The notes under the pieces are model-generated. The model was not told where the DNA came from, did no database searches, and was given only the letters and a program-made list of their open reading frames with translations. The position numbers were made by a program, and so were the translations under genes. Source: Paludibacter sp. (GTDB lineage: Bacteria > Bacteroidota > Bacteroidia > Bacteroidales > Paludibacteraceae). Taken from it: a stretch of DNA of 64,000 bases. The stretch is from positions 62,001-126,000 of the forward strand of contig JAFLKK010000008.1 of NCBI GenBank assembly GCA_019163375.1, in the 5' to 3' direction. Shown here in pieces: positions 39,691 through 59,755 of this stretch. The first letter of the stretch is position 1; each line of letters begins with the position of its first letter.

Positions 39691-39718
39691 ATTCAGTTGT
39701 CAGTCATCAGTAAACAGT
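39691..39718 (+). repeat. Heptad repeat tract (4 units) after ettA
   Basis: ATTCAGT TGTCAGT CATCAGT AAACAGT: four 7-bp units starting at the first base after the ettA stop, same consensus as the arrays at 43585 and 43960. Confidence 0.7.
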
Positions 39719-40037: not shown

Positions 40038-41888
40038 TCATATCATCCCATATCCAATCCGTTCATCGGTTCCGTTCAGCACTACCGACATTTTATTGAA
40101 CTTATTAGCAGCATAAATTTCGTTTATCAAACTACAAGCCTCACGGGGCGTAAAGTCCTGACGAACCACATAGATACAGTTATCAACCAACCTGTTGAGT
40201 AAATACGTATCCGAAACCACACCCACCGGTGCTGAATCAAGGATAATATAATCAAATTCTGCTTTTAGTTTCCCGATCAAATCGTCTAAACGCGCACTCA
40301 TCAGTAACTCATCCGGATTGGAAAGAAGAGAACCTGCAGGAATTATACTTAAACATGAGTGAATGCCCGAAGGAACAATTATATCACTAAGGTCGTTGGT
40401 TGAATCGGATAAAAACAGACTCATTCCTTTATCTTTGGTTAGGTGTAAATACTCGTCAACCATCGGATTCCGAAGATCCAAATCCACCAATACCACTTTT
40501 TTCTTCATCATTGCAAATGACAGAGCCATGTTTGTTGCTGTGAATGTTTTTCCTTCACCTGCAATCGTAGAAGTCACTAGAATTACCGGTGATTTAGCAC
40601 CTCCCAATGTAAACTGAAGATGAGTGCGAATTGACCTGAACATTTCTGCCACAGGGGTATTCTTCCCATCAGCCATCACTATTTTATCCGCATCTTTATT
40701 CTTTGCAATTGAGCCCAGATAAGGCACTTTTAGCAGTTTTTGTAGTTCTGCTTTATCCACAATTTTATCATTGAGTTTATTTTTCAGATAAAAAATCAGA
40801 CCCGGAATTCCAAAACTTAAGACAAATGCCAACAACAAAACAAGAAGGACTTTGGGCGAAACCGGATCTATAGAGACATACGCATTATCAATTGGTTTAG
40901 AAGTAGGGATAACTGTAGCCATACTAAGTTCATTTTCCTCGCGTTTCTGCAGTACAAACAAGTAAAGTGTTTGCTTCACTTTTTGTTGTCTGAGAAGGTC
41001 TACATTTGAACTATTTTTTTTCAGTTCGGCTTCAACCTTTTGTAATTCGCCTCCTATCAATTTCAGCCTTTCATCAATAAAATAAGCGGTAACCTTCGCC
41101 AATGCATTTTTATCATCTACTTCGTGCTTATTGTACAGTTCAATAAGTTTATTTAAAAATGCCTGCCCTTTTTTCACACAAGCCGAGTGGGTAGAAATAC
41201 TGATGGCATTCGACCTTTTCAGCACCGCACTCACTTTTATATTTTCACAATAGTATTCAATAAGATGACGAGTAGGGTACGATACAGTTTTATAAGTTGT
41301 ACCACCTTTCAGAGGTTGTATTTGCTTGAATCTGAATTCACCGATAGGTGTACGAACAGGTTCTGAAAGACTTGCCAACTGATATTCCCCGCTGATGGCA
41401 TCATATTTGAACCGAACAGTATACCCTTTTTCAGAACGATCTATTTTGAAAACTGCGAGATACTTTGCCGTATCATTGAACTGAGCCGGAACGAGCAATT
41501 GGACAGGTATTGTCGGATAAAGTTCCACATACCGCCATCCTTCTTTTTGAAAATACTCTGTTTGGATATTCAGATCCAAAATTACTTTTCGAATGATTGT
41601 TTGAGAACTAAGCACCTGAATTTCATCTTCAACGTCCTTATTTGTAACACCCATTCCTAAATCAATCAGCGATTTATCGAGCAATGCAGGTCCTGAATTA
41701 TCCTGACGCAATAAAATGGTTGCTTCAACTTTGTATTTTTTGTTAGCAACGCATAAGTACAAGGTCGCCATACCGAAGCAGGCAACAGCAGATATTGCAA
41801 ACCAATACCACTTTGAACGATACTTGAAGAATAAGTCTCTTACACTGAACGAATTTGGATTAGATATGTTAGGTTTATTATTGTCCAT
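40038..41888 (-). CDS. Wzc-like polysaccharide co-polymerase / tyrosine autokinase
   Basis: This 616-residue inner-membrane protein controls polymer length and export. It has an N-terminal Wzz domain after a first transmembrane segment (WYWFAISAVACFGMATLYLCV), a periplasmic region with a short coiled coil (about 250-300), a second transmembrane segment (VLLVLLLAFVLSFGIPGLIFYL) and a BY-kinase domain. The kinase shows Walker A STIAGEGKTFTATNMA, Walker A' KVVLVDLDLRNP and Walker B FDYIILDSAPVGV. It is shorter than the usual 700-800 residues. Its C-terminus (DERIGYGMI) has one Tyr where most relatives have a cluster of several. No Wza-type export gene is adjacent. Confidence 0.92.
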   Translation of the reverse strand: MDNNKPNISNPNSFSVRDLFFKYRSKWYWFAISAVACFGMATLYLCVANKKYKVEATILLRQDNSGPALLDKSLIDLGMGVTNKDVEDEIQVLSSQTIIRKVILDLNIQTEYFQKEGWRYVELYPTIPVQLLVPAQFNDTAKYLAVFKIDRSEKGYTVRFKYDAISGEYQLASLSEPVRTPIGEFRFKQIQPLKGGTTYKTVSYPTRHLIEYYCENIKVSAVLKRSNAISISTHSACVKKGQAFLNKLIELYNKHEVDDKNALAKVTAYFIDERLKLIGGELQKVEAELKKNSSNVDLLRQQKVKQTLYLFVLQKREENELSMATVIPTSKPIDNAYVSIDPVSPKVLLVLLLAFVLSFGIPGLIFYLKNKLNDKIVDKAELQKLLKVPYLGSIAKNKDADKIVMADGKNTPVAEMFRSIRTHLQFTLGGAKSPVILVTSTIAGEGKTFTATNMALSFAMMKKKVVLVDLDLRNPMVDEYLHLTKDKGMSLFLSDSTNDLSDIIVPSGIHSCLSIIPAGSLLSNPDELLMSARLDDLIGKLKAEFDYIILDSAPVGVVSDTYLLNRLVDNCIYVVRQDFTPREACSLINEIYAANKFNKMSVVLNGTDERIGYGMI

Positions 41889-42241: not shown

Positions 42242-43606
42242 ATGAACACAAAAGAATATATCTCCGAACATCAGGATCGTTTTTTAAATGAACTCTTCAG
42301 TCTAATCCGCATACCCAGTGTGAGCGCGCATGTACACCGTCAGCCTGAGTTACAACAATGTGCCGCCCAATGGCAGAAACTATTACTCGAAGCGGGTGCA
42401 GATACAGTTCAGATTATACCGACCAAAGGCAACCCCGTGGTTTTTGCTACCAAAACACTGGATAGCTCCTACCCGACCATTATGGTCTACGGCCATTACG
42501 ACGTTATGCCGGCCGAACCTCTTGAGTTATGGACCACACCGCCTTTTGAACCCGAAATTCGCGATGGGAAAATCTTTGCACGTGGTGCCGACGACGACAA
42601 AGGTCAATCGTTTATGCATGCCAAAGCTTTCGAATACCTTGTTCGAAGCAAGCAATTGAAATGCAACGTCAAGTTCCTGCTCGAAGGGGAAGAAGAAATC
42701 GGTTCGCCGAGTCTGGAAGTCTTTTGTGCCGAGAACAAAGAGCTGCTCCAATGCGATATGATATTGGTTTCGGACACCAGCATGCTTTCGGCAGATACCC
42801 CGAGCATCACCACCGGATTGCGGGGATTGGCCTACTGGCAAATCGAAGTCACAGCAGCATCACGCGATTTGCACTCCGGCATTTTTGGCGGTGCAGTGGC
42901 TAATCCGATTATGGAGCTTAGTAAAATCCTGGCACAGCTCACCAATGCTGAGGGGCAAATCACCATCCCGCATTTCTACGACGATGTAGAGGAAGTTTCC
43001 GATTACGAACGCTCTCTTATCGTTCAAATTCCGTTCAACGAAGAAGAATACAAGCGCAACCTAAATATTTCGCAGGTATACGGCGAAAAAGGCTACAGCA
43101 CTATTGAGCGCACCGGTATTCGTCCGGCATTGGACATTTGTGGTATTTGGGGAGGATATACAGGCGAAGGATCTAAAACGGTATTGCCATCCAAAGCATT
43201 TGCCAAACTATCGGCACGATTGGTCCCACATCAACAATATGAAAAGATAGCACGATTGGTAGCCGAACATCTTAGGGCTATTGCTCCTGAGCATATCGAC
43301 ATAAAAATCACGACCTTGCATGGAGCGGAGAGCTATGTTTGTCCTATCGACTCCGATGCCTACAAAGCTGCTGAGAAAGCCTATACCAAAGTATTTGGAG
43401 TAAAGCCCCTGCCCGTTCGCCGTGGTGGAAGCATTGGAGTAATTCCGATTTTTGAGAAAGTGCTGAACGTAAAACCTATTCTAATGGGCTTTGGACTCGA
43501 ATCGGACGCCATCCATTCACCGAACGAAAATTTCCCGCTCGACTTGTTCCAAAAAGGCATCGAAACCATCGTGGAATTCTATTTAACAGTGAACAGTCAA
43601 CAGTGA
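42242..43606 (+). CDS. M20-family dipeptidase
   Basis: This 454-residue metallopeptidase of family M20 (dipeptidase/carnosinase-like group) shows the metal-site blocks MVYGHYDVMPAEPLELW (His and Asp), RGADDDKGQS (bridging Asp), LLEGEEEIGS (catalytic Glu pair), a dimerisation domain around SRDLHSGIFGGAVANP, and the C-terminal GFGLESDAIHSPNE with the last metal His. It is cytoplasmic, hydrolysing dipeptides. It is the only plus-strand gene in the polysaccharide region and is probably unrelated to it. Its last codons (LTVNSQQ) are written in the heptad repeat that follows. Confidence 0.94.
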   Translation: MNTKEYISEHQDRFLNELFSLIRIPSVSAHVHRQPELQQCAAQWQKLLLEAGADTVQIIPTKGNPVVFATKTLDSSYPTIMVYGHYDVMPAEPLELWTTPPFEPEIRDGKIFARGADDDKGQSFMHAKAFEYLVRSKQLKCNVKFLLEGEEEIGSPSLEVFCAENKELLQCDMILVSDTSMLSADTPSITTGLRGLAYWQIEVTAASRDLHSGIFGGAVANPIMELSKILAQLTNAEGQITIPHFYDDVEEVSDYERSLIVQIPFNEEEYKRNLNISQVYGEKGYSTIERTGIRPALDICGIWGGYTGEGSKTVLPSKAFAKLSARLVPHQQYEKIARLVAEHLRAIAPEHIDIKITTLHGAESYVCPIDSDAYKAAEKAYTKVFGVKPLPVRRGGSIGVIPIFEKVLNVKPILMGFGLESDAIHSPNENFPLDLFQKGIETIVEFYLTVNSQQ

Positions 43607-43689
43607 GCAGTTATCAGTAAACAGTTATCAGTAAATAGTTAATAGTTATCAGTGAGCAGTGATCACTGAGCAGTGATCAGTCATCAGTG
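43585..43689 (+). repeat. Tandem heptanucleotide array, 15 units
   Basis: From AACAGTG at 43585 onward the sequence keeps a strict 7-base period for 15 units (AACAGTG, AACAGTC, AACAGTG, AGCAGTT, ATCAGTA, AACAGTT, ATCAGTA ...), consensus A-[ACGT]-[CT]-AGT-N. It begins 22 bases before the dipeptidase stop, so it encodes the protein's C-terminus. Confidence 0.9.
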
Positions 43690-43959
43690 ATTAGATAATA
43701 ATCTTTGTGGTTCTACGTGAACTCCCGATTCTCGGGATGTTCCATTAGTGACTTAGTGATAAAAACTATTTTTATTGACAATAAACTACGAATGACGCGA
43801 ATGACGCGAATTAATTTCTTTCTTATTCGTGGAATTTGTGCAATTCGTTGTTTTGAAATGTTTATGGAGCTTGCGATGGAGTATTTCGATGGAGTATTTC
43901 GACATCCCGTTTTTTCGGGACATTCCGAGAATCGGAACATCCCGATTTATCGGAACTAC
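43690..43959. repeat. Mosaic of dispersed repeat modules
   Basis: No gene. In order: a TTAGTG-family element with CTTTGTGGTTCTACGTGAA (43692-43720), a CCCGATTCTCGGGATGTTCC palindrome (43726-43745), GTGACTTAGTGATAAAA, a module TTTTTATTGACAATAAACTA followed by CGAATGACGCGAA...TTATTCGT (43770-43829) that recurs at 45115-45166, and CCCG/CGGG palindromes again (43900-43955). Confidence 0.7.
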
Positions 43960-44043
43960 TTACTGATAACTGTTTACTGATAACTACTTACTATTTACTC
44001 CTTACTATTTACTGTTGACTGCTTACTGTTAACTGATACCTGA
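43960..44043 (-). repeat. Tandem heptanucleotide array, 12 units (opposite orientation)
   Basis: TTACTGA TAACTGT TTACTGA TAACTAC TTACTAT TTACTCC and so on, twelve 7-bp units. On the minus strand they match the array at 43585. The array overlaps the 3' end of the WecA-like gene, whose last residues (SVNSKQSTVNSKE) it encodes. Confidence 0.9.
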
Positions 44044-44966: not shown

Positions 44967-45295
44967 ACTTTTTAGTTGATACTTCTACTACGTTCTGTAC
45001 AAGTAAAAGTAGTTTGTTGTAAATAGTGGTTGACTATAACTATTTACTGATAATGAAGTTTGAGATATCCCAACCTATCGGAACTGCTTACTTTACAAAC
45101 TGCTCCTTGCGGTTTTTATTGATAATAAACTCCGAATGACACGAATTAATCTCTTTCTTATTCGTAAAACCTGTGAACCAACGGTCAGCGTAGCTAAATT
45201 CGTTGTCTGAAATTTATTCAGTACACTCTCTCTGTGTATCTAAGTGAACTTAGTGACTTAGTGGTAAAACTGTTTTATTCACTGATAACTGTTTA
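44967..45295. repeat. Second mosaic of dispersed repeats
   Basis: No gene. It repeats the modules of 43690-43959: heptads (TAACTAT TTACTGA near 45038), TATCCCAACCTATCGGAACTGCTTAC (diverged palindrome, 45066-45091), TTTTTATTGATAATAAACTC then CGAATGACACGAATTAATCT to TTATTCGT (45115-45166), and CTGTGTATCTAAGTGAACTTAGTGACTTAGTGGTAAAA-like TTAGTG repeats (about 45232-45269). Confidence 0.7.
45115..45166. repeat. Copy of the TTTTTATTGAyAATAAACT module
   Basis: About 50 bases that match 43770-43829 apart from a few substitutions and one 9-base unit (GAATGACGC) that is doubled in the other copy. Confidence 0.75.
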
Positions 45296-45303
45296 CTACC
45301 TAC
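45276..45303 (-). repeat. Heptad tract at the 3' end of the wzi-like gene
   Basis: On the minus strand TTTAGTA GGTAGTA AACAGTT ATCAGTG: four 7-bp units that begin in the last codons of the Wzi-like frame and supply its stop codon. Confidence 0.65.
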
Positions 45304-46704
45304 TAAACAAATTCCCCCTCTTCCTTACACTCACCATGCACCCTATCGAGTTACCATACAGTTTACCGATATCTGCACCTACCGAGCATCCCATTTCTAT
45401 ATGCGATAATTTAGGAAATTGTTTCTTTACTTCCAGCAGCAGAGAGGTATTTCTAATCATTTCAGGATAAGGAGCCCAGTAATTACCGTAGTTTTTACTA
45501 AATGAACATAAGGCCTTATAGTTATAACCATGCACATCACCTTCCAGCCCAATATGATGTACCTGAACGCGACTATTCACAATACTTACACCTCCATTTT
45601 TATTATACACCGGTGACGACAGAAAAGGTGTACCTATGGTTCTGGAAAAATAGGTCCAACCATTTTTATATACGCTATTGCCAAAATAACCATCATTTCC
45701 ACCATAAACGATTCCATCCTTGTCATGAAACGGTCCTGATTGATCGGTGCTGTTCAGGTATTCATAGACCAGTCCTTTAATAATAGGGAATGTATTGTTC
45801 CGAATAGATATACCCCAGAGCCCATCAGGTTTATTCATGGTGTTGGTCATAAATTTAGGACTGTCCTCCGATATATTATGCCAGTAGCCACTTACCGAGA
45901 AGTTAGAAATGCAATACTCCACCTTCATGCTCTGCGAAAGAATATGATTGCCCAATGCATTGACTTGATCCGTTTTAAGTGCTGAACTACCACCGGAGCT
46001 ACCCATTACTATCCTCAGGTAATCACTTAATGAAGTGGGTTGTTGCCCCATTCCCAGCACATTACCACCCCATTGTGCCACATGGTCTACCCCATACTGA
46101 AAATGAAAGGGCACCCCCCCCCCACTCTAAAGTAAATATATTTATGATGAAGGAGTAGATTCGTTACGGCGATATTATCCGTAAACCAACCGTGTGCCAC
46201 AGCTCCCTTTACTTCCAGATAGCCTTTGGTAAAGGGTACGGGGGTGAAACGTTCTATTCCAAGGGTAATTTTGGGCATGGGGCGGGCATTTTTGGAGAAC
46301 AGAAAACCACCACAGGACAAACTGGAATCCTGAGTACCCAGATGTTCTTCGCGTGCCCCTACGATTAGATCCAAGACAGAAAAGCGGGCTTTCAGATAAG
46401 CTTCGTGAAAATATGCTTTCGTCTTGTTATCGTAAGTTTTGAGTAGTACATCAGCTTTAAAACCATAATCAAATACCGCAGACTTTTTATTGAAATCTTT
46501 ACTAAACCCCATATTCACATTGACTGAATTTGGCGAAGATGAAATTTGTCCATAGTTATCGCTCTGCAACCAAAATGGAGCATACGTCCCGGTGGAACCT
46601 ACTCCCGTAAAGCCCACTTCATACTTTAGCGTATCTTTCTGTGCTTCAGCTGCAAACGGAAGTAACAATAAAACTACACAAACAACTATTTTACAATTTA
46701 CCAT
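45296..46704 (-). pseudogene. Wzi-family capsule assembly outer-membrane protein, interrupted at a G10 tract
   Basis: Start at 46704 gives a signal peptide (MVNCKIVVCVVLLLLPFAAE then AQ). The first frame reads GSTGTYAPFWLQSDNYGQIS, LKTYDNKTKAYFHEAYLKA and HKYIYFRVGGG, the start of a Wzi/capsule-assembly beta-barrel. At the C10 run (46114-46123, G10 on the coding strand) it shifts and stops 6 codons later. The barrel resumes in another frame (PFHFQYGVDHVAQWGGNVLG, then IGTPFLSSPVYNKNG) to 45296. Eleven (or eight) G would restore one frame; eleven gives RVGGGVP, aligning with the usual R-L-G-G-x-x-P. The total (about 470 residues) suits the family. It is a pseudogene, an assembly error, or a phase-variable switch. 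Confidence 0.85.
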
Positions 46705-46734
46705 GTACACAATTTTAATGAATAAGAAATTTTT

Positions 46735-46764
46735 CCGATATTGTGTACACACAATATCGGAAAT
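46735..46764. promoter_or_regulatory. Perfect 14-bp palindrome between sugar-transferase and wzi-like genes
   Basis: TTCCGATATTGTGT, AC, ACACAATATCGGAA: a perfect inverted repeat with a 2-base centre in the 78-base gap of an otherwise tightly packed minus-strand cluster. T-tracts beside it are weak, so it may be a weak terminator, an RNA stability hairpin or a protein-binding site. Confidence 0.6.
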
Positions 46765-46782
46765 GTTAATCAAAAACAATTT

Positions 46783-47370
46783 CTATTTCACAATATGCCA
46801 AAATGTCAAGAAAATGATGTAAAAATACTCTTTGATACTTTTATGCTCAATAAATTTCATATTGAGTCTTATTTTATGGGGCATTATTTCCTCTATATAC
46901 ACTTTTTCGGGATCAGTTGCCGAACCAAGGATTTCATTTTCATCCACATATTCAATCGATGCATAATCTGTTATTCCCGGGCGTACACTTAGTACTTGTA
47001 ACTGTGCCTCATTATACATTTCCACATACTTTCTTACTTCCGGTCTGGGACCAACAAAACTCATATCACCTACAAAAACATTTAGTAATTGTGGTAATTC
47101 ATCCAGTTTAAACCGACGGATAAAATAACCCACACGTGTCATTCGTGGGTCTCTGCCGCCGATGGTTATTAATCCCTTTTTATCAGAGCCAACACGCATG
47201 GAACGAAATTTATACAGCGAAAAGTCAATATTATTTCGACCGACTCTTTTCTGAATATAAAAACCACCACCCTTACTTTCAACAGCTATTAACAGGTAAA
47301 TAATAATGAATAGTGGAAGGCAAATTAAAATTCCAAGGAATGAAAATACAATATCAAATATTCGAATCAT
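46783..47370 (-). CDS. Small monotopic phosphoglycosyltransferase (PglC-like sugar transferase)
   Basis: This 195-residue bacterial sugar transferase attaches a sugar-1-phosphate to undecaprenyl phosphate. It has a single re-entrant hydrophobic segment at the start (IFDIVFSFLGILICLPLFII), then IQKRVGRNNIDFSLYKFRSM, the catalytic FKLDELPQLLNVFVGDMSF with the Asp-Glu dyad, and VGPRPEVRKYV plus RPGITDYASI. Length matches the minimal PglC class rather than the long WbaP class. Its ATG overlaps the stop of the aminotransferase gene by one base, and the two may cooperate, as PglC and PglE do with diamino sugars. That link is an inference. Confidence 0.93.
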   Translation of the reverse strand: MIRIFDIVFSFLGILICLPLFIIIYLLIAVESKGGGFYIQKRVGRNNIDFSLYKFRSMRVGSDKKGLITIGGRDPRMTRVGYFIRRFKLDELPQLLNVFVGDMSFVGPRPEVRKYVEMYNEAQLQVLSVRPGITDYASIEYVDENEILGSATDPEKVYIEEIMPHKIRLNMKFIEHKSIKEYFYIIFLTFWHIVK

Positions 47371-48593
47371 TATTTAAGTATTATTTTTTGGTAGGCATCA
47401 ACAACAGTATTAATTACGAAATCAACCTCTTCAGTTGTCAATTGCGGATAAATAGGTAATGATATCTCAGCAGCATAATTTTTAAATGCCTGAGGATAAT
47501 TAGTAATATCGTATCCTTTATTTTTGAAGAAACTCAACATAGGCATAGGTATAAAATGAACGTTAACAGCTACTTCACTTTTTGCAATTTCATCTATTAT
47601 CTCATCGCGTAGGTCTTCTGTTATATCAGCAATTCTTAATGCATAAATATGGTACGAACTTTCTTTCCCATTATCTTTTGAAGGTGGTAAAACAGCCCAT
47701 TCATACTTACGAAATATGGTATCATATTGTCCGAAAATTCGTTTACGTGATGCGAGTAAGTTGGAATACTGACGAATCTGAGCTAATCCTATTGCTGCAT
47801 TTACATCGGGCATATTGATCTTCATTCCAAAATCAACTATATCATATCTCCAACCACCTGCTTTACTTTTCGAAAATGCATCCTTTGTCTGGCAGTTTAA
47901 AGTCATTTGACGTAATTCTGCATACAAAGCAGCATTATCAAAGGGTTCTGGTAAATTTAAACAAATTGCTCCTCCTTCGGCTGTAGTAATATTCTTTACA
48001 GCATGTAACGAGAAAATTGCTATATCCGTTTCACACCCGGTACGTTTATCTTTCTGATAAAAAGCGCCTAGAGAATGAGCTGCGTCATTCATCACCAGTA
48101 TGCGCCCTAACTTTTGTTGAACGGTAGAATTCGGTTGAAACATTTCTAGTATTTTTTTTTCAGTAACTACCTCCATGATTTCATCATAATCACATGGAAA
48201 ACCTGCTATATCAACGGGTATGATTGCTTTTGTTTTGGGAGTTATTGCTGCGCGAATAGCTTGTACAGAAATATTAAAGTCCTCGCACGAATCAACCATT
48301 ACAGGCACCGCTCCTGCATGTAAAACAGCCAATGCTGTAGCCGCATAAGTATAAGCAGGAACGATAACCTCATCCCCCTCTTTCACTCCCAGCCATTTCA
48401 ACATCATAATAGCTCCCGAAGTCCAGGAATTTACACACAACACTTCTTGCGCTGAACACAATTCCTTAATCTCATTTTCCAAAGCTTTTACTTTGGGACC
48501 GGTAGTAATCCAACCGGAGTTTAAAGAGTCAACAACTTCCTTAATAACAGATTCATCTACATAAGGGGGAGAAAAACTTATTTTCATAATCAT
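47370..48593 (-). CDS. DegT/DnrJ/EryC1/StrS sugar aminotransferase
   Basis: This 407-residue PLP enzyme transfers an amino group onto a nucleotide keto-sugar. Seen: SFSPPYVDESVIKEVVDSLNSGW at the start, the cofactor region NSWTSGAIMMLKWLGV, GDEVIVPAYTYAATA, VMNDAAHSLGAFY (Asp for the pyridine ring) and SLHAVKNITTAEGGAI with the Schiff-base Lys. The likely products are 4-amino sugars of the bacillosamine or similar type, but the partner 4,6-dehydratase for a UDP-sugar is not in the window. The start codon overlaps the upstream GT2 stop (ATGA). Confidence 0.93.
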   Translation of the reverse strand: MIMKISFSPPYVDESVIKEVVDSLNSGWITTGPKVKALENEIKELCSAQEVLCVNSWTSGAIMMLKWLGVKEGDEVIVPAYTYAATALAVLHAGAVPVMVDSCEDFNISVQAIRAAITPKTKAIIPVDIAGFPCDYDEIMEVVTEKKILEMFQPNSTVQQKLGRILVMNDAAHSLGAFYQKDKRTGCETDIAIFSLHAVKNITTAEGGAICLNLPEPFDNAALYAELRQMTLNCQTKDAFSKSKAGGWRYDIVDFGMKINMPDVNAAIGLAQIRQYSNLLASRKRIFGQYDTIFRKYEWAVLPPSKDNGKESSYHIYALRIADITEDLRDEIIDEIAKSEVAVNVHFIPMPMLSFFKNKGYDITNYPQAFKNYAAEISLPIYPQLTTEEVDFVINTVVDAYQKIILK

Positions 48594-49606
48594 CTATTTA
48601 TTTCGACACTAAACTTTTTGTGCATAATTATTTTATAAATTCCAACTAAATAACCGTATCCATAACTAATATGAATCATAAAAAAGACAACTGGCAAGAA
48701 AATGGTTAATTTCCAGTCTTTGACTTTTACTGCACCTTTCACTGCAAAAAATATACTCAATAATAAATAGGAGCAGATAACAAGTAAATATGGAATCAAA
48801 AAGTAGTTTGAAAATATAGAAAGTAATCCTCCAACTGTTAGACCAAATAAAAATGCTATGGGAAAAAATTGTCTAATTGTTGCTGGTGCTCCAATTTTCA
48901 GATTAACTAATGGTTTAAATAAGCCATATTGATAATACATTTTAGACATTTTAGCTACACTGTCACGAGCAGTGTAATTTATAACTAAATCTGGTATCAA
49001 AAAAATTTTACCTCCACTCTTTACAAGTCGCGCATTAAACTCGTCATCTTGATTACGAATTAGTTCCTCATCAAACAAACCAATTTTGTCAAAAACTTCT
49101 CTTCGGTAGCAACCAAAAGGCACTGTATCTGTTTCTATTATATCTTTTGCACCAACTTTATGCTTTGAATCACCTACTCCAAATTTATGACTTGAACCTA
49201 TGGCTATAGCACGACAAATAGAATTATTTTTTGCAGGTAAAGTATTCCAAACTGCACCAACATTATCTGCATTAAGCTCAAAAAGATACATTACAAGGGT
49301 AGATATATAATCGGTTGGATACACACAATGTCCATCAATTCGAATAATGACCTCGCCATTTGAAGCTTTAATTCCTAAATTTAGCGCGTGAGGTACTACT
49401 TTGTCAATGTTGTCAAGTAGTTTTATATAACTGTACTTCTTACTATAATTTTGAACAATCTCTCTTGTCTTATCTGTACTCATTCCGTCTACAAAAAAGA
49501 CTTCCAAAGAGTCTTTTGGATAATCTTGAGCAATTATAGACTCAACACATTTATCAATAAACTTTTCTTCATTTAGAATTGGACAAATAATTGAAACAAA
49601 CTGCAT
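48590..49606 (-). CDS. Membrane-associated GT2 glycosyltransferase
   Basis: A 338-residue family 2 glycosyltransferase with ISIICPILNEEKFIDKCVESI-type start (VSIICPILNEEKFI), FVDGMSTDKT, the metal site in IIRIDGHCVYP, TDTVPFGCYRREVF and RNQDDEFNARLVKSGG with the catalytic ED-type acid. The C-terminal third has three or four hydrophobic segments, placing it at the inner membrane. The acceptor and donor are unknown. It forms a tight unit with the aminotransferase and PglC-like genes downstream. Confidence 0.9.
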   Translation of the reverse strand: MQFVSIICPILNEEKFIDKCVESIIAQDYPKDSLEVFFVDGMSTDKTREIVQNYSKKYSYIKLLDNIDKVVPHALNLGIKASNGEVIIRIDGHCVYPTDYISTLVMYLFELNADNVGAVWNTLPAKNNSICRAIAIGSSHKFGVGDSKHKVGAKDIIETDTVPFGCYRREVFDKIGLFDEELIRNQDDEFNARLVKSGGKIFLIPDLVINYTARDSVAKMSKMYYQYGLFKPLVNLKIGAPATIRQFFPIAFLFGLTVGGLLSIFSNYFLIPYLLVICSYLLLSIFFAVKGAVKVKDWKLTIFLPVVFFMIHISYGYGYLVGIYKIIMHKKFSVEINR

Positions 49607-49627
49607 ATTTAAGATATATTTTAAAAT

Positions 49628-49735
49628 TTAAAATCGATTAAACAGTGAACTAATTGTTAGGGAATCTATTCCATCCAATTCTGATTTAGCATAAATATTT
49701 CGTAAATCAATTGGTTTCAATATTTGAATTTTTCA
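49628..49735 (-). pseudogene. Remnant of a second ugd: C-terminal tail
   Basis: On the minus strand from about 49714 to the TAA at 49628 a 28-codon frame reads PIDLRNIYAKSELDGIDSLT then ISSLFNRF. It aligns with the end of the intact Ugd a kilobase upstream (PLLIDGRNVYSKAELEGIDY): R-N-[IV]-Y-[AS]-K-[SA]-E-L-[DE]-G-I-D. The DNA is also similar over about 45 bases. A stop lies six codons upstream of the aligned part and no start is present. It is a leftover from an older ugd copy at this spot. Confidence 0.72.
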
Positions 49736-49831
49736 ATAAAAAAAATCAAATAATTACATTCAAACCTCTACAACAACTATTGAAAGAAGGACATCTAAAA
49801 CTACACCAATACTGCATTACTAAAACATTAA

Positions 49832-50584
49832 TTAAATCCTCTTTTTTGTAGAATTAAATGAATACAAACAAAAGCAAAATAAAGTCTGAAGTATCGACAA
49901 TTTTTCAATATCTCTATAAAGCTTCCAAACATTATTAGCTGCTTTCCATTTATTGGCAGTATTAGAATTAGAAACTACACGATATGTTGCCAAAACTTCA
50001 TTTAAACCATACGCTATAAAACCTCTCTTTAAAATTGACAACCACAAGCCTGTATCATGAGCACTTTTAATTATAGGCATCCTGAAATCTCCTATTTTAT
50101 CTTTATCTATAATCACAGTCAAACAACCGATAATGGTATTTCTTAAAAGTTGATTATAAGTAACACTTCGAGGAACATAAATTATTTTACTAAGCTTTTC
50201 TCCTAACTCGCTTATTTTGTCATAGGCTGAAAACGTAAATGCATAATCATTTAGTTTCATGAAAGCTAATTGACACTCTAACTTATTATTAAGCCAAATA
50301 TCATCACTATCTAAAAAAGCAATATACTTACCGCTTGCCTTTTCTAAAGAATTATTTCGTGCAGCCGCAGCACCAACATTTCTATTCAATGAAAATAATT
50401 TAATTCGATGATCTATTTCTGTGTATTTTTGAATCAATTCAACAGAATAATCTTGAGAACAATCATCTGTTATCAATAACTCCCAATCTACATACGACTG
50501 GTTAATTACAGACATAATGGAATCATCTAAAAAGCTAGAGGAATTATAAGACGACATTATAATTGACACTAATCCTTTAATCAT
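49832..50584 (-). CDS. GT2 glycosyltransferase
   Basis: The start at 50584 (MIKGLVSIIMSSYNSSSFL) is preceded by GGGGGAAAC, an unusually good ribosome-binding site for this genome; the longer frame begins five residues earlier. The 250-residue protein has the GT-A nucleotide-binding start, ELLITDDCSQDYS, the metal-binding DSDD in KYIAFLDSDDIWLNNKLE and a short C-terminal region without membrane helices. It starts 23 bases after ugd. It may have entered the locus together with that ugd copy, since the remnant of another ugd follows it. Confidence 0.9.
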   Translation of the reverse strand: MIKGLVSIIMSSYNSSSFLDDSIMSVINQSYVDWELLITDDCSQDYSVELIQKYTEIDHRIKLFSLNRNVGAAAARNNSLEKASGKYIAFLDSDDIWLNNKLECQLAFMKLNDYAFTFSAYDKISELGEKLSKIIYVPRSVTYNQLLRNTIIGCLTVIIDKDKIGDFRMPIIKSAHDTGLWLSILKRGFIAYGLNEVLATYRVVSNSNTANKWKAANNVWKLYRDIEKLSILQTLFCFCLYSFNSTKKRI

Positions 50585-50607
50585 AATTGTTTCCCCCAAA
50601 TGAATTA

Positions 50608-51912
50608 TTAACCAATCTTTATATAATCAATTCCTTCTAGTTCAGCTTTAGAATAAACATTTCGACCATCAATTAGTAATGGGGTGTTCATTGATTTTCT
50701 TATTACACCCCAATTTGGCATGCGAAATTCTTTCCATTCAGTTATATGAAATATGGCATCAACGTCTAAAACAGCATCATACATATCTACTGCATATTCA
50801 ATCCGATTTCCCAATATCCGTTTAGCTTCATTCATTGCTACAGGATCATAAGCCACCACATGACAGCCCGCTTTCAATAAACTATCAATAAGGACTAATG
50901 ATGGTGCCTCACGCATATCATCAGTTCCAGGTTTAAATGACAAACCCCAAACTGCGACTTTTTTACCATCTACTCTTCCATTAAAGTAGTTTGAAAATTT
51001 ATCAAAGAGTATGCTTTTTTGCCTATCATTTACCGTCTCAACTGCTTCCAAAACCTTTAATTGATAACTATTCTTTTGCCCGGTTTTAATAAGTGCCTTC
51101 ACATCTTTCGGAAAACATGAACCTCCATAACCACAACCTGAATACAGAAACTTGTTACCAATTCTAGAATCTGAACCAATCCCCTTACGAACCATACTTA
51201 CGTCTGCACCTATTAACTCACAAAGGTTTGCAATATCATTCATAAAACTTATTCGAGTAGCCAACATAGCATTAGCAGCATATTTTGTCATCTCTGCAGA
51301 AGGTATATCCATAAAAATAACTCGGAAGTTGTTTAATAGCATCGGTCTATATAAACGTGTCATTAGTTCTTTTGCTTGTTCTGTCTCAACACCAACAACC
51401 ACTCTGTCTGGTTTCATAAAATCATCTATCGCATCTCCCTCTTTTAAAAATTCAGGATTTGAAGCGACATCAAATTGTACCTCAACTTCCCTTTTATCTA
51501 TTTCAGACTGTATCACAGCTTTAACCTTCTGCGCTGTACCAACAGGTACAGTACTTTTTGTAACAACTAATATATATTTATTAATGCTAGATCCAATTGT
51601 TTTAGCAACCTCAAGTACATATTTTAAATCTGCACTTCCATCCTCATCTTGTGGAGTTCCTACTGCAATAAATACGATTTCAACATTATTTAAACAAGAC
51701 AATAAATCTGGAGTAAAATGCAAACGGCCTGATTTCGAATTTCTTGCGACTAAAATATCTAAATTAGGCTCATAAATTGGAATAATACCATTTTTCAACC
51801 CTTCAATTTTTTCATTATTTATATCAACACATGTTACATTAATTCCTAATTCAGCAAAACAAGCCCCACTTACTAGTCCGACATATCCTGTTCCTACAAT
51901 TGCTATATTCAT
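50608..51912 (-). CDS. ugd: UDP-glucose 6-dehydrogenase
   Basis: Ugd oxidises UDP-glucose twice to UDP-glucuronic acid. The 434-residue protein has the NAD-binding start MNIAIVGTGYVGLVSGACFA, the second glycine region KSTVPVGTAQK, NPEFLKEGDAIDDFMKPDRVVVG, the catalytic Cys in GCGYGGSCFPKDVKAL and the sugar-binding WGLSFKPGTDDMREAPSL. It ends DGRNVYSKAELEGIDYIKIG. All catalytic residues seem intact. It supplies the uronic acid on which a C5-epimerase in the same cluster could act after polymerisation. Confidence 0.95.
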   Translation of the reverse strand: MNIAIVGTGYVGLVSGACFAELGINVTCVDINNEKIEGLKNGIIPIYEPNLDILVARNSKSGRLHFTPDLLSCLNNVEIVFIAVGTPQDEDGSADLKYVLEVAKTIGSSINKYILVVTKSTVPVGTAQKVKAVIQSEIDKREVEVQFDVASNPEFLKEGDAIDDFMKPDRVVVGVETEQAKELMTRLYRPMLLNNFRVIFMDIPSAEMTKYAANAMLATRISFMNDIANLCELIGADVSMVRKGIGSDSRIGNKFLYSGCGYGGSCFPKDVKALIKTGQKNSYQLKVLEAVETVNDRQKSILFDKFSNYFNGRVDGKKVAVWGLSFKPGTDDMREAPSLVLIDSLLKAGCHVVAYDPVAMNEAKRILGNRIEYAVDMYDAVLDVDAIFHITEWKEFRMPNWGVIRKSMNTPLLIDGRNVYSKAELEGIDYIKIG

Positions 51913-52203
51913 CTTTATTATTACATTTCAAATTTTTATACTCATTTTTTCAAATCTCACCAAAAGAGATAAATCAATAATTACAATGCTTTTTTCAGCT
52001 TACAAGTATTTTTGTAGTTCAAACAATTCAATTTAGATTCAAAATTCATATATATTTTATGACTTAGCACTTATTATTGATTTAAATTCACTCCAATTTT
52101 CAACGTTTTCCATTCATAAGAGACAATGAGTTAAATAATCATATAATATGAGAATCACTGAAAAACAAACATGTCTTAACTAAATACACTTTAAGGATAA
52201 TAT

Positions 52204-53367
52204 CTAATTATTATTTCTATCAACTAACAATCCTCTTTCTTTTAATTCATCAAGACTTTCATCATATTGACTAGATTTCATTTTATATGATTCCTTTTGA
52301 GATTGAACCCATTCTGCAAATTTTTTAATTCCGTCTTCAAAAGATATTCTAGGTTCCCAATTTAAATATTCTAATGCATAAGTTACATCAGCCTTATTAT
52401 GTCGAATATCTCCAAGTCTAAAATCTCCTGATATTCTAATATTTGATTTTGAATGATAATATTTTTTAAGTGTTTCCGCTATTTCTAATACACTAATTGA
52501 ATTGCCACTTCCAATATTGAAAACTGTATTTGTAGTATCGAAATTAGTAATTAATGCTTTATAAATACCTTCAGCAACATCTTCAACATTAATAAAATCT
52601 CTTGATTCATACCCATCTTCAAAAATATTTATTTCTTGATTTTCGAGTAACAACCTTGAAAATATGGATAGTATACCCGTATATGGATTCGTTAATGACT
52701 GACCTGCTCCATATACATTTTGAAATCGGAGTATTGTATATTCTATATTCAGGGCAGCACATTGCGCCTTAATCATCTGCTCTTGAGCTAATTTAGTCAC
52801 GGCATATATTGAATCTGGATTTGTCCACGATTTTTCATCTGTAGGTATAGATTTTAAAACCAAATCACAATGAGGACAGTAGCAATCGTACTTTTCATTG
52901 ACTAGGCGACTTTGCTTTCTTGAGTCAGGGTAAATTACTCCATGATTTTCACACAAATACTTACCCTCACCATAAACCGATCTTGATGATGCAAGAATTA
53001 TTTTTGATATTTTAATTTTGTGGTTTGTTATTATATCAAGAATATTAGCTGTGCCCATCACATTAACATCAAAATAATTATCAATATCATACATCGATTG
53101 ACCAGTTCCAGTTTCAGCAGCTAAATGAATTATAGTATCAACGGAATTTAAAGTCTCAATCATTAATTGCTTATCTCTTACATCTCCCTTGATAATTCTA
53201 CATTCAAGTGGCAGTTTTTTAAACAAAAATGACTCCATATAATTATCGCCATGAATCTTTTCTGAGAAATTATCTAGGATTGTTACATTATATCCTTTCA
53301 GAACCAACAATCTAGACAAAGTTGAACCAATAAAACCGGCACCACCAGTAATAAGTATTTTTTTCAT
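52204..53367 (-). CDS. NAD-dependent sugar epimerase/dehydratase with Cys-rich insert
   Basis: The 387-residue extended short-chain dehydrogenase has GGAGFIGSTLSRLL at the start, the catalytic SIYAVTKLAQEQM (YxxxK), LRFQNVYGAGQSL and the C-terminal NWEPRISFEDGIKKFAEWV. Between the catalytic Ser region (ASSRSVYGEGKYL) and the YxxxK lies an insert of about 45 residues with CENHG and CYCPHC, which could form a zinc knuckle. I recall similar inserts in some dTDP-L-rhamnose 4-epimerase-like proteins, so epimerisation of a nucleotide deoxysugar is possible. The product is not certain. Confidence 0.82.
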   Translation of the reverse strand: MKKILITGGAGFIGSTLSRLLVLKGYNVTILDNFSEKIHGDNYMESFLFKKLPLECRIIKGDVRDKQLMIETLNSVDTIIHLAAETGTGQSMYDIDNYFDVNVMGTANILDIITNHKIKISKIILASSRSVYGEGKYLCENHGVIYPDSRKQSRLVNEKYDCYCPHCDLVLKSIPTDEKSWTNPDSIYAVTKLAQEQMIKAQCAALNIEYTILRFQNVYGAGQSLTNPYTGILSIFSRLLLENQEINIFEDGYESRDFINVEDVAEGIYKALITNFDTTNTVFNIGSGNSISVLEIAETLKKYYHSKSNIRISGDFRLGDIRHNKADVTYALEYLNWEPRISFEDGIKKFAEWVQSQKESYKMKSSQYDESLDELKERGLLVDRNNN

Positions 53368-53368
53368 A

Positions 53369-54526
53369 TTAAATATTTAGTATAAAAGAATTCAACAACC
53401 CCATTCTATTCTCTAACTCTGTAGTGTTTGAAAATTTAAATGCATTGTTTTTATAATTAGTTTTATTTACTTTAAAATCAGTTATTATCTCATCAATATT
53501 GTTATATAAATATAGATTCTCTTTTATTGAAAAAATTTCCTCAATAGCTAAAAATTTCCCTTTTTCTATAATTATAGGTATTCTGCCACAAAGCCCTAAT
53601 GAAAACCTAGTCGGAATACTAATATTTGTTCTCAAATCGTTAAAATCATTATAGAAAACTATTATTCCATCAAATTTCGAAATAAACTTTCCAAGCTCAC
53701 CATTATATATTTCATCAAAAGAAAAGGTTTTAAAAATATTTATATTCTTGTGAGGAAGTAGACCAACAGCGGGTTCTTGAACAAATATTTCAATTCCACA
53801 ATTTGCCAAATCATATATTTGACTTCTGACATCATCAATTGTTCGATTTTTAAACTCTGTATTTCCTAAGAATACAAGTTTCAATTTATCTTCATCATTA
53901 ATTGTAAGTTCTTCTGTTGAATATAACTTACTTATAAATGAATCATAAAATATAATATATTTTTTTCTCTCCAAATTTATATATTTTGAGAAATAATCTT
54001 TCATAATTTCCGATGTGAATATTAAACCATCAATTTGATTAAAAACTCTCATATCGTCATTTATAAATTCTCCTATTTCGTCAAATTTTATCTTCTCACG
54101 AACAGGATAGGTATTAATATCAAGTATCACTTTGATATTTGGGAAGTGCTCTTTTATAACCTCAATCTCGTTAAATGTACACGTTCCCCAAAAAGAAAAA
54201 CAAACACTGGGATTTATATCTGCAATATAGCTAACCATATTGTTTTCGAACTCCTTGACTTTTTCCTTTTCTAAAAACTTCAAATACTTTATAAATAAAA
54301 TAGAAGTGTCAATTTTTAGATACTTGATTATTTTTTTTATAAAAAACCAAATTCTCTTATTTCTTCTCTCAGGGTAGATATTTAAAACTTCAATACCAAA
54401 CAGATTCTCAAAATGTTCTTCCTTAGATGTATTAATTATCGACAGCTCAAAACCACTTTCTGAAAGTGCTTGAACATAACTCCAAGAAAAAATACTCGTA
54501 AGAGAGCCTAAATAAAGTAACCTCAT
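53369..54526 (-). CDS. Probable GT-B fold glycosyltransferase
   Basis: Start at 54526 (MRLLYLGSLTSIFSWSYVQA) is preferred; the longer frame from 54574 would prefix a hydrophobic 16-residue stretch and overlap the acetyltransferase further. The 385-residue protein shows the two-domain GT4-like plan: an N-terminal Rossmann half beginning LYLGSLTS, a middle linker, then LKLVFLGNTEFKNRTIDDV and ISIPTRFSLGLCGRIPIIIEKGKFLAI, the C-terminal donor-binding half. The usual E-x7-E motif is not clear, so the assignment is moderate. It is closely spaced with the SDR downstream. Confidence 0.6.
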   Translation of the reverse strand: MRLLYLGSLTSIFSWSYVQALSESGFELSIINTSKEEHFENLFGIEVLNIYPERRNKRIWFFIKKIIKYLKIDTSILFIKYLKFLEKEKVKEFENNMVSYIADINPSVCFSFWGTCTFNEIEVIKEHFPNIKVILDINTYPVREKIKFDEIGEFINDDMRVFNQIDGLIFTSEIMKDYFSKYINLERKKYIIFYDSFISKLYSTEELTINDEDKLKLVFLGNTEFKNRTIDDVRSQIYDLANCGIEIFVQEPAVGLLPHKNINIFKTFSFDEIYNGELGKFISKFDGIIVFYNDFNDLRTNISIPTRFSLGLCGRIPIIIEKGKFLAIEEIFSIKENLYLYNNIDEIITDFKVNKTNYKNNAFKFSNTTELENRMGLLNSFILNI

Positions 54527-54530
54527 AATG

Positions 54531-55172
54531 TTATATATTATTAAACAAATTAGAATCAATAAATAGATCAGCACTTTCTTTCAACTTTTTATTATCCCAC
54601 TCCCACCATTTTACATCTTTTATTTTTAATATAACATCGTCTGGCAATCTAAATCTATGGAACTTTGCCGGAGCCCCCATCACTATCGCATACGGTTCGA
54701 CATCTTTAGTTACAATTGAGCCGGCTGCTATAACTGCTCCATTCCCAATTTTCAAACCACCCATAATTAACACATTTGCTCCGATCCAAACATCATTGCC
54801 AATTTCTACGTTACTAAAATGGTCGAAATAATTTCTATTTGAAAAACTATCTTTCAAATTTTTGTCATAAAAATACGGAGATGTACTTACTAAATGTAAA
54901 GGATGAATCCCAAGCCCTATCTTCACACCTGGCCCGATACTACAGAATCTGCCTATAATGGAATTAATAAGAATACTTCCTGGTGAAATATATGTGTAAG
55001 AGCCTAAGGTAGAATTAAATAATCTACAATTATCAAGAATCATTACATGTTGTTCAAATTTACATCTGAAATTTATGTAACATCCTCTTCCTATTGTTAA
55101 TTTTCTCTTTGTGATTCGAAGAAAAAACAAGTACATATCAGATAAAAACCATTTAATATATTGCATCTTCAT
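54531..55172 (-). CDS. Left-handed beta-helix O-acetyltransferase (CatB/LbetaH type)
   Basis: This 213-residue hexapeptide-repeat acyltransferase has repeating I-G-x-x-x-x motifs, such as SIIGRFCSIGPGVKIGLGIHP, with the catalytic His in GLGIHPLHLVST. DVWIGANVLIMGGLKIGNGA and VVTKDVEPYAIVMGAPAK-like SIVTKDVEPYAIVMGAPAK close the helix. It should acetylate a sugar using acetyl-CoA. Its first 20 bases overlap the end of the GT4 gene upstream, so translation is probably coupled. Confidence 0.9.
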   Translation of the reverse strand: MKMQYIKWFLSDMYLFFLRITKRKLTIGRGCYINFRCKFEQHVMILDNCRLFNSTLGSYTYISPGSILINSIIGRFCSIGPGVKIGLGIHPLHLVSTSPYFYDKNLKDSFSNRNYFDHFSNVEIGNDVWIGANVLIMGGLKIGNGAVIAAGSIVTKDVEPYAIVMGAPAKFHRFRLPDDVILKIKDVKWWEWDNKKLKESADLFIDSNLFNNI

Positions 55173-56175
55173 TTAATATGTATTTGTAGTTATTTCTTTG
55201 ATTCTCTATATAATTACTCAATTCAATCTGATTTCTAAAAAAATCTCTTGAATTAAATAATACAGAATCCTTTTGATTCAATATTTGTTGTGCTGCAGCA
55301 TCCACATCACTTGATAATTTCAATGAATTAGGGATTTGCGATAAGTAGGTCCAAATATCCCCGGCATTCATAGAATAGATAGGTAGATTGGTTGCTATCG
55401 ATTCTTTTACGATGTTAGGAGAACCCTCAGCATCTGAAGTAATCAAAACAAATTCGCAAGCAGAATAAAAATAATTAACAACACTATTTTCAACACCTGT
55501 CATTATGAGCAATTCATAATTAGTGCCGCCAACACTATTGACTATGTCAAGAATCTTATATGCTTTATCAATCCGCTTGATCAAAGATTTACTTCCATAT
55601 CCAAAAAGGATATATTTAGTATTAAAATCTAAATTAAGCTGTTGTTTCGCAATCACTTTATCAATAGGATAATACCTTTCATAATCGACTCCTAAAGCTA
55701 TTGAATAAATCTTGGCTCTATATCTGCCTAACACATTTGAAGGGATTGAATTCAATAAATTCTCTGAAACAACCTCATTTCGATCAGCTATTTTTATAAG
55801 ATTCAATGATGCAATTCTGTTTAAGTAAATCCATATCTTTTTTAATCCTTTTGAATTGGCTCTTCCATGCAATTCTGTTCCATGATAAGTAATTACAAAT
55901 TTAGACTTTGTATTGTTAAATTTTAAAAAGACATACAATAATAGAACATAAATGCCCCCAAAATGAAAATGAATTATATCAAATTGTTTGTTCTTCAATT
56001 TAACTAACTCTATAATTTTAAATATGAGATTTGGTTGATCATTTCCAATTCTAGCAATAAATAGGCAAACATCATCAGTAGGATATATACGTTTATATGC
56101 ATCAACTACGGATTGAACGATTGGAGTTCCAATATTTTTAACTGGATACGTATTTGTTATATATAATATTTTCAT
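55153..56175 (-). CDS. GT4-family glycosyltransferase
   Basis: This 340-residue GT-B enzyme has MKILYITNTYPVKNIGTPIV at the N-terminus, VITYHGTELHGRANSKGLKK as the acceptor-side loop and GVDYERYYPIDK at the domain junction. The donor site SKSLIKRIDKAYKILDIV is followed by ITSDAEGSPNIVKESIATNLP (the E-x-x-P-x-x-x-x-E pattern of retaining GT4 enzymes). It adds one sugar of the repeat unit; which one is unknown. Confidence 0.9.
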   Translation of the reverse strand: MKILYITNTYPVKNIGTPIVQSVVDAYKRIYPTDDVCLFIARIGNDQPNLIFKIIELVKLKNKQFDIIHFHFGGIYVLLLYVFLKFNNTKSKFVITYHGTELHGRANSKGLKKIWIYLNRIASLNLIKIADRNEVVSENLLNSIPSNVLGRYRAKIYSIALGVDYERYYPIDKVIAKQQLNLDFNTKYILFGYGSKSLIKRIDKAYKILDIVNSVGGTNYELLIMTGVENSVVNYFYSACEFVLITSDAEGSPNIVKESIATNLPIYSMNAGDIWTYLSQIPNSLKLSSDVDAAAQQILNQKDSVLFNSRDFFRNQIELSNYIENQRNNYKYILNEDAIY

Positions 56176-56266
56176 AAAGACTCGAGTAACATATTAAATA
56201 AAAAAAAACTAGTGAAATAATCAAACATTAAAGTACAATTGATTTACACCGAAGATACTAAAACAA

Positions 56267-57187
56267 TTACTGTCTATTGATAGTATTTAATGAACTCATA
56301 TTCAATACCTTTTGAATAGCTTTAATAAATATGAATAGATATCCAAATCTAAGAGATTTCTCCCAAAATCGTGCTTTTTTCAAAAAAAACAAATCTTTAG
56401 TTATGTGATGTAAACTATACATCATATCAATATGTAATTGATGATAGAAAAGACTCGCAATAGTTTTAGTTGTAGTATAATATGACCAATTAAATACAAA
56501 ATTATACTTGACTATGATTGATTTTAGGACAGAAATATGATAGTCAAAATAATCAAATTTACCTGTAAACAAAGCATAATCATATAATCCGTAAATTGCA
56601 AATATATATCCATTCAAAACATTTTCTGATGCACCACCAAATTCTTGCAATATAATTCCATAAACTGTTTCATTTGATAACTCATCACTGAGCATATGAT
56701 TCTTCGCAATTTCTATTTTTTCACTAGCAATATCTTTCGATATTAAATTCAAAAGATAACATCTATAAATAAATGAGATAGCTAATCCTTGCCCCATAGC
56801 TGAAGACCATCCAGGCTTAACTGATAAATATGAAATACTGTAATCATTATGCCATCCTCCGTCATCGCCTTGATTAAAAAAAATCCATTCTAAAATATTC
56901 TTAATGTGAAATATATTATTGGGATTTGAATGCAATTCATCAATCAATCCTAATCCATAATTAAATATTGTAATAGAGAATTCCATTTCCTCTCCATTCA
57001 TTTCAACAATTGGAATAGAATTATTTTTTTTAAATGGATAATTTGATTTTGGTGTGAAATTTAAATAATACAGCTCTTTATATGGGAACTCAGTTCTAGC
57101 CATTAAACGAGCATGCCAATAATCTTCCTTATTTGATAAATCTTCAAATAATCTAACAAAACCGTATCTTATTTTCGTTAAAAACAT
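56267..57187 (-). CDS. D-glucuronyl C5-epimerase-like protein
   Basis: This 306-residue protein resembles the C-terminal catalytic domain (C5-epim_C) of heparan-type glucuronyl C5-epimerases, which convert GlcA to IdoA within the polymer. Seen: GDDGGWHNDYSISY, the hallmark GWSSAMGQGLAISFIYRCY, LQEFGGASENVLNGYIFAIYGLYDY and TTTKTIASLFYHQLHIDMMY, an SxFYHxLHI block with conserved Tyr/His. No signal peptide is obvious, so where it would meet its polymer is unclear. UDP-glucose dehydrogenase in the same cluster supplies the uronic acid. The family call is by remembered motifs, so activity needs proof. Confidence 0.75.
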   Translation of the reverse strand: MFLTKIRYGFVRLFEDLSNKEDYWHARLMARTEFPYKELYYLNFTPKSNYPFKKNNSIPIVEMNGEEMEFSITIFNYGLGLIDELHSNPNNIFHIKNILEWIFFNQGDDGGWHNDYSISYLSVKPGWSSAMGQGLAISFIYRCYLLNLISKDIASEKIEIAKNHMLSDELSNETVYGIILQEFGGASENVLNGYIFAIYGLYDYALFTGKFDYFDYHISVLKSIIVKYNFVFNWSYYTTTKTIASLFYHQLHIDMMYSLHHITKDLFFLKKARFWEKSLRFGYLFIFIKAIQKVLNMSSLNTINRQ

Positions 57188-57214
57188 ATTAGGTGTACTA
57201 ATTTATATTATATA

Positions 57215-58531
57215 TTAATTTGAATTAAATAATGAGACTTTAGTTTCTTTTAAATCAATCATCAACAAACCGATAAACATCCAGAACCATTCAGAAAATC
57301 TTATAATTGAGACACTGTTACAACCCAGGCCGCTTAATAAGAAAAGAATTAAAATCATACTGAAAAAATACCTATTATTATAATGAACTGTGAAAATTAT
57401 TTTAGAAATCCAAATACCGAATATTGTCAAGAGAATACTACCGATAAGACCTGCGCTATAAAAAAATTCAAGATAAAGAGAATCATTTACTCCTAAATTT
57501 TTATAAGATCTAAAACCACTTCCTAGTAGAAAATTATCATATATTACTTTTGTCAAATCCCCAGTCGATCTTTCGTTAAAGTCATATCGTTGTCCTAACT
57601 TTCTTCCATTAAAAAATGCATCAATCAAATAGTTAAAATTATCTGCATATACTGAAAAAGTGTCAGAATATTTAATCTTCAAATAAAGAAGAAGAAAAAT
57701 TATAGCAATTACCAATAAAATTACATATTTGAACATAACTTTAAAGTCAAATACGAGAAAATATAAAAATATAAAAAATACACCTCCATAATATGTCAAA
57801 GAAGAACATAAAATACCAGAAGTAACATTCAGCAAAAATATACCAATTAGTATTTTTCTTTCTTTTAACGATATATTATATTTGTAAAATCTTAATATAA
57901 ACTCCAAACTGACAAAGGTTGTTATCAACAAAAATGCGGCATAATAAGAAACATTTTCAAAAACACCAATTGATCTGAATATATAGTCTGAATGTTTAGA
58001 AATTTCTTCCATTAATCCTTGAAAAACCGGGCGATTAACAGAAGAATAGAACATTTCTGTAAGACTTATTATATAACTATTTTGAATAGACTGCCCTATA
58101 CCAATTAATGATATTGGAACTGAAACAAGAAGCAATAATCTTAAAATCTTGATATTGCTAATCCTTTCTGTTTTTAAGTTACTTGCTATTATCATCAAAA
58201 AGCCATATCTTATAAAATTGAATCCTGTTGTATAGGAGACTTCACTATCCAAATCATAATCATTCGAAATAAAAGTAACGAGAAAAAGATAAATAACAAT
58301 CAATAACCATAAAAGGATAATTTTGGTTATATAGACCCTCCTCTTTCTTAATAAGAATATTGCGAAAAGTATCGGCGTAAGTAGTAATTCAATTCTAAAA
58401 TTTAGTGATCCAATTGAACAATATGGCGCCAAAAAAACTGATATAATATAGACATAAATGCCCACATATGTTTTATGATAGAAATAAAATATTACAGAAC
58501 AAACAAGAAATATCAATAGTACATTTATCAT
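57215..58531 (-). CDS. Wzy-like O-antigen/capsule polymerase
   Basis: The 438-residue protein has 10-12 hydrophobic helices and a large polar loop near 290-345 (FNGRKLGQRYDFNERSTGDL, LGSGFRSYKNLGVNDSLYLE) of the O-antigen ligase/polymerase type, where Arg residues and the G-S-G-F-x-x-Y pattern recur in Wzy/EpsG-like proteins. With the flippase two genes upstream it indicates Wzx/Wzy-dependent synthesis. Polymerase sequences vary strongly, so the call rests on topology and context. Confidence 0.8.
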   Translation of the reverse strand: MINVLLIFLVCSVIFYFYHKTYVGIYVYIISVFLAPYCSIGSLNFRIELLLTPILFAIFLLRKRRVYITKIILLWLLIVIYLFLVTFISNDYDLDSEVSYTTGFNFIRYGFLMIIASNLKTERISNIKILRLLLLVSVPISLIGIGQSIQNSYIISLTEMFYSSVNRPVFQGLMEEISKHSDYIFRSIGVFENVSYYAAFLLITTFVSLEFILRFYKYNISLKERKILIGIFLLNVTSGILCSSLTYYGGVFFIFLYFLVFDFKVMFKYVILLVIAIIFLLLYLKIKYSDTFSVYADNFNYLIDAFFNGRKLGQRYDFNERSTGDLTKVIYDNFLLGSGFRSYKNLGVNDSLYLEFFYSAGLIGSILLTIFGIWISKIIFTVHYNNRYFFSMILILFLLSGLGCNSVSIIRFSEWFWMFIGLLMIDLKETKVSLFNSN

Positions 58532-58627
58532 TTATAAACAAATAAATTAAAACCCATTATCCTTTACCCTTAAATATATCATTTATAAATATAATCTTTC
58601 TACATTAACAACAACATAGAATACAAA

Positions 58628-59617: not shown

Positions 59618-59755
59618 TATTATATGTTTTTTGTAAACTTATCTTTTGATTATTTTCAGAATAATATTAATATTGTATTTAGTTTTAAGTAAAACAATTT
59701 GATACAAATAAGAATTGCATAGCTAAACAATCATAATATTATGTCCTATATAGGT

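Follow-up and report, generated by a model that had tools for sequence, protein, structure and literature searches.

A wzi-like gene divided at a run of ten G

The window analyzed here is a 64,000-nucleotide stretch of the Paludibacter sp. assembly GCA_019163375.1 (contig JAFLKK010000008.1, positions 62,001 to 126,000), and the gene in question encodes a Wzi-like outer-membrane protein on its minus strand. Read directly, positions 46114–46123 are ten consecutive C residues on the plus strand, corresponding to a G10 homopolymer on the coding strand, and two minus-strand frames of a single PF14052 (Wzi) gene meet at this tract. The upstream part (46087–46704, minus strand) lies in an open reading frame (ORF) spanning 46087–46779, with a likely start at the ATG at 46704. 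Its 205-residue product comprises a signal peptide-like start, the region of strands 1–8 of the barrel described below and eight out-of-frame residues past the tract, followed by a stop. The downstream part (45296–46114, minus strand) corresponds to strands 9–18 and has no start of its own known to be used. Neither half contains further stops. An earlier note on this DNA had proposed that two frames of one Wzi-like gene meet at the C10/G10 run, and this was borne out by the ORF coordinates, by the PF14052 matches of the two halves and by the alignment of a full-length relative (P0001), which matched two places in the window with residues 1–206 and 192–469. A tract that controls the reading frame is thus present at the junction, and the observed frame offset is consistent with the arithmetic of the earlier note, by which eleven G residues would join the frames and eight would also be in frame.

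Both halves scored above the curated PF14052 cut-off of 30.1 bits, on complementary stretches of the profile: the upstream half covered 24–139 (30.9 bits) and the downstream half 166–308 (41.7 bits), confirming the Wzi-type identity that had been suggested for the protein. An intact relative was modelled as an 18-strand barrel, as expected of an outer-membrane protein of the PF14052 family, and its best match among solved structures was Escherichia coli Wzi (2YNK). On this model, the tract position maps to the turn that links strand 8 to strand 9. The predicted R-[LV]-G-G-x-x-P turn motif was also recovered: among 50 relatives, G195 and P199 were invariant and G196 nearly so. A sequence search of solved structures (alignment A1) yielded no Wzi among its seven matches up to E 1, the best of which (E 0.04) was unrelated, so it is Pfam and fold comparison that connect the protein to 2YNK. 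The model shared 13% identity with 2YNK, the alignment began at residue 90 of the 2YNK chain, and a strand directly followed the signal peptide-like helix of the model. Judging from the model, this family member may lack the helical domain found at the N terminus of E. coli Wzi.

Each half was then aligned separately with 24 full-length relatives (P0001–P0025 minus P0018, the window's own fragment). Changes at sites that were invariant in all other sequences numbered 0 of 93 in the N-terminal part and 2 of 148 in the C-terminal part (2 of 241 in total). When the 24 intact relatives were scored one by one in this way, totals ranged from 0 to 19, with a median of 3. By this comparison of sequences, the two halves appear to be under the same degree of constraint as unbroken genes, and the suggestion that both are good protein sequence with no other stops and no old decay holds up. 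Outside the tract, the gene is intact and constrained, as is expected of a repeat-based phase-variable gene. Because both halves are as conserved as the intact relatives, the break should be recent, reversible or not real.

The tract in this genome, in relatives and across the genus

The genome comprises 4,657,121 bases in 29 contigs and is 99.99% complete; the window lies on contig 3. Nothing observed in it suggested a pathogen. There are 12 G/C runs of at least seven bases (nine of 7, two of 8, none of 9 and one of 10), making the G10 tract the sole G/C run of nine or more, and no other G/C run in the window exceeds five bases. Extrapolating from the observed tail, a run of at least ten would be expected in about 4–28% of such genomes, the range reflecting the assumed fall-off ratio. 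Base composition alone predicts 0.46–1.23 runs of at least ten per genome and a first-order model of the window 0.7, but these models overshoot, predicting about 67–133 runs of at least seven compared to the 12 seen. When the window was shuffled, 16 of 100 shuffles had 7-base matches equal to or above the four overlapping ones contributed by the G10 tract. In the 26 window genes, 70 of the 916 glycine codons were GGG.

At the protein level, the turn site reads G-G-S-L-P in 23 of the 24 close relatives and G-G-R-L-P in the remaining one. At the DNA level, 38 distinct relatives' sites had G runs of two (23 sites), three (12 sites) and five, six and seven (one each); these sites include a misaligned row (L090) and a few distant homologues outside the genus, and no DNA of the 80–90% identical relatives. 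The longest run, G7, occurs in L007, where the frame is open. In 60 genomes, the only listed match with an internal stop (G035:C183) covered query residues 97–165 and did not span the site. The 120 best of 257 protein matches, of which the best full-length ones were 90% identical, included no joined allele from the same species, in a database clustered at 90% that could hide one.

Within the genome itself there was no second copy of the broken gene, as P0001 matched only the two halves (E up to 0.001). A divergent Wzi-family paralogue of 571 residues has an open frame (L118, 834–2549; G000:C3, 30833–32548) and scored 24.2 bits, below the Pfam cut-off. It adjoins a gene that reads like a sugar transferase, and matches of the same type, with open frames of about 500–640 residues, were found in most of the 48 genomes of the genus that were searched.

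G/C runs of at least nine were present in 42 of these 48 genomes, the window's own included. We collected 50 tracts from 49 loci, of which 30 each represent a different genome and the other 19 all carry runs of at least ten. At least one further run of ten (G035:C53) lies outside this set, and some of the tracts are near contig ends. Nine tracts were in frame inside ORFs with at least 60 open codons on both sides, while 39 were not in such ORFs. Two were flagged as broken, in the window and in L104, and L061, itself among the nine, received a flag on its antisense strand as well. L104 makes a weak case for a broken coding gene: its upstream ORF had no Pfam match, and the other half is a helix-turn-helix protein. 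A switch operating across the genus was considered and rejected, as the 50 tracts showed no clear enrichment in surface genes and no other convincing broken coding gene. In other genomes of the genus, in-frame G10 tracts occur in the genes of a TonB-dependent receptor (L106), a GH31 enzyme (L109) and a WbqC-like protein (L110), and these are candidates in which tract length might vary.

The polysaccharide locus and other features of the window

The wzi-like gene is located within a Wzy-type polysaccharide locus, with Wzz/Wzc, sugar transferase, glycosyltransferase and UDP-sugar dehydrogenase genes around it according to Pfam. All of the features that follow are on the minus strand. Directly upstream of wzi is a bacterial sugar transferase (PF02397, 46783–47370), followed by a DegT/DnrJ aminotransferase of the locus (47370–48593). 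Downstream of wzi are a family 4 glycosyltransferase (PF00953, 43995–44966) and a Wzc-like chain-length protein/tyrosine kinase with Wzz, GNVR and AAA_31 matches (40038–41888). The latter is 616 residues long; Bacteroidetes Wzc proteins are usually longer, and its coiled-coil part is possibly shortened. The remainder of the locus (48590–63849) encodes glycosyltransferases, a UDP-sugar dehydrogenase, epimerases, a hexapeptide transferase, a C5-epimerase domain protein and a thiamine pyrophosphate (TPP) enzyme, and is not split, judging from ORF layout and Pfam. Three of its ORFs (53369, 57215 and 59756) had no Pfam match, and two of these, 57215 and 59756, look by eye like Wzy and Wzx. When 11 window proteins (the wzi halves and their neighbours) were compared by tblastn to 11 loci, only the wzi halves matched (E up to 1e-8) and no shared neighbours were found; six of the loci, at 3.8 kb, are too short to show much, and the five of 6.4–12.8 kb (L031–L035) likewise had no common neighbour.

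The window contains other repeats as well. TAACTGA-like heptamers in a 7-base register occupy four intergenic stretches (39694–39713, 43587–43695, 43954–44042 and 45279–45304). A two-unit pattern with up to two mismatches matched 20 times in the window compared to 1.8 expected, with 15 of the matches inside these stretches. Direct repeats of TAACTGA are described, in the part of PMC4679880 that we consulted, from Beggiatoaceae, cyanobacteria and five Bacteroidetes including P. propionicigenes. Two copies of a dispersed intergenic repeat of 43 bases, 86% alike, lie at 43798–43840 and 45133–45175. At 15388–16052, a HigB-type toxin gene is followed by a helix-turn-helix gene with a 16-base overlap, which looks like an ordinary toxin–antitoxin pair. 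Elsewhere in the genome (L117, 2021–2075; G000:C1, 814620–814674), two T runs, 27 and 26 bases long with CA between them, immediately precede an ATG. The ORF that follows is open through them too and resembles its upstream neighbour; read by eye from the sequence, both proteins appear to end in a LuxR-like helix-turn-helix. These T runs are a striking leader repeat or else an oddity of the assembly.

Interpretation of the frame break

We lean, if only slightly, toward the view that the window carries a real OFF allele of wzi, made by slippage within a recently expanded G10 tract and able to revert. The tract would have grown at the codons of the conserved Gly-Gly turn, and replication slippage within it would recently have put wzi out of frame. 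In the assembled state, the predicted product ends 11 residues past the Arg-Val that precedes the tract. As this leaves only eight of the 18 strands on the model, the broken gene is not expected to yield functional Wzi, and polymer would be released instead of retained on the cell. Given the length of the tract and the absence of other damage, the gene could return to frame by slippage, and in this cell line it would then constitute a phase-variable contingency locus, presently OFF, with or without selection on the tract.

The expected phenotype is drawn from Wzi in other bacteria. According to the portion of PMC3791409 available to us, E. coli and Klebsiella that lack Wzi still secrete polymer but retain less of it as a capsule, and the excerpt of PMC8571296 reports a drop of about 4.4-fold in cell-bound polymer, together with increased shedding, in Acinetobacter baumannii lacking Wzi. 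A shed-slime state is expected, by analogy, from the broken allele, though perhaps only in part, because the divergent 571-residue Wzi-family protein remains in the genome. An evolved switch is possible. That a poly-G contingency tract in wzi moves the polymer between a cell-bound coat and shed slime while synthesis is kept, as a retention switch in actual use, is a tentative proposal that we think rather unlikely to be right.

The earlier note had read the locus as possible phase variation, and that reading stands in part: the gene is a Wzi gene, the break lies at a tract of a hypermutable type and the halves are intact, while variation in tract length was not seen. Several observations weigh against a reversible OFF allele. 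A single tract state was observed, on at most two contigs. Conservation of the tract in orthologues, which is common in phase-variable genes but not strictly required, was not found at any of the 38 relatives' sites. Taken by itself, the G10 tract is mildly unusual at most; the informative point is its coincidence with the frame break. Single unclustered frame breaks are considered likely indel mutations or sequencing errors in the part of PMC3711429 consulted. The poly-G contingency loci of Neisseria, Campylobacter and Helicobacter, as the sources describe them in the parts available, resemble this one in having a long G tract within the reading frame of a surface gene, here assembled OFF, but those genomes have many repeat-associated genes with observed variation, compared to one run and no variation here. 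The lack of decay and the exact position of the break at the tract are equally compatible with a reversible OFF allele, with a very recent mutation and with an error of assembly.

An assembly or base-calling error in the G10 tract, with the gene intact in the living cell, is the alternative that survives best, although we consider it unlikely. Homopolymers of this length are usual sites of error, the relatives' frames are open at the site, and both halves are free of decay. On the other hand, the identical 205-residue upstream fragment with the same out-of-frame tail occurs on two contigs, the longer of which (432,312 bases) is the window's own. The second contig very likely carries the same break, and may derive from the same reads. 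The downstream fragment is a called protein (P0018, 236 residues, 100% identical, in an 11-member cluster) on a contig of another length, 13,487 bases. In addition, of the 56 A/T runs of at least seven bases in the window, 33, which are 7–9 bases long, lie inside ORFs that stay open, but none of these is a G run, and there is no other G run near ten to serve as a control.

An ordinary loss-of-function indel, recently fixed in the strain through, for example, laboratory growth or phage escape, would make the gene an early pseudogene with no switch. The break is a singleton, the tract is not conserved and the divergent paralogue still has its open frame, all of which would suit such an event. 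We nevertheless regard it as a less probable explanation than a sequence error, since the gene has neither a second lesion nor an excess of changes at conserved positions, and since the length of a G10 tract should go on changing, making fixation of one state unexpected in a large population. Recoding, in which RNA polymerase or the ribosome slips on the G run to give a fraction of full-length protein, is very improbable: both frames are conserved and homopolymers are known slippage sites, but the tract and the break were both absent from the compared relatives, and the slippery runs named in the available part of PMC3711429 are of adenine or thymine.

If the tract does vary, it would represent homopolymer phase variation in Bacteroidales that acts, through Wzi, on polymer retention and not on synthesis. 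Capsule switching in this order is known mainly from the inversion of promoters. We found no report of slipped-strand switching of wzi in the part of the matching open-licence literature that was examined. A true retention switch would be useful against phage or for dispersal, while a one-off mutation or an error would matter little.

Among characterized proteins, the closest parallel is the E. coli group 1 capsule lectin Wzi (2YNK), which the window's protein resembles in its PF14052 assignment, in the 18 long strands of the relative's model and in its setting in a Wzy-type polysaccharide locus. It differs in its low sequence identity, in the N-terminal helical domain that is perhaps missing here and in the broken state of the allele. 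Homopolymer slippage also breaks the frame of capsule genes in the A. baumannii K locus under phage selection (PMC10249906, in the part consulted), but there it affects A/T runs of gtr6 and wzx, not wzi, and the selection took place in the laboratory. Bacteroides fragilis belongs to the same order, and for it the excerpt of PMC3090145 suggests that a polysaccharide locus could be varied by slippage, an extra C in a run of four breaking a gene there; that run is far shorter than the G10 tract described here.
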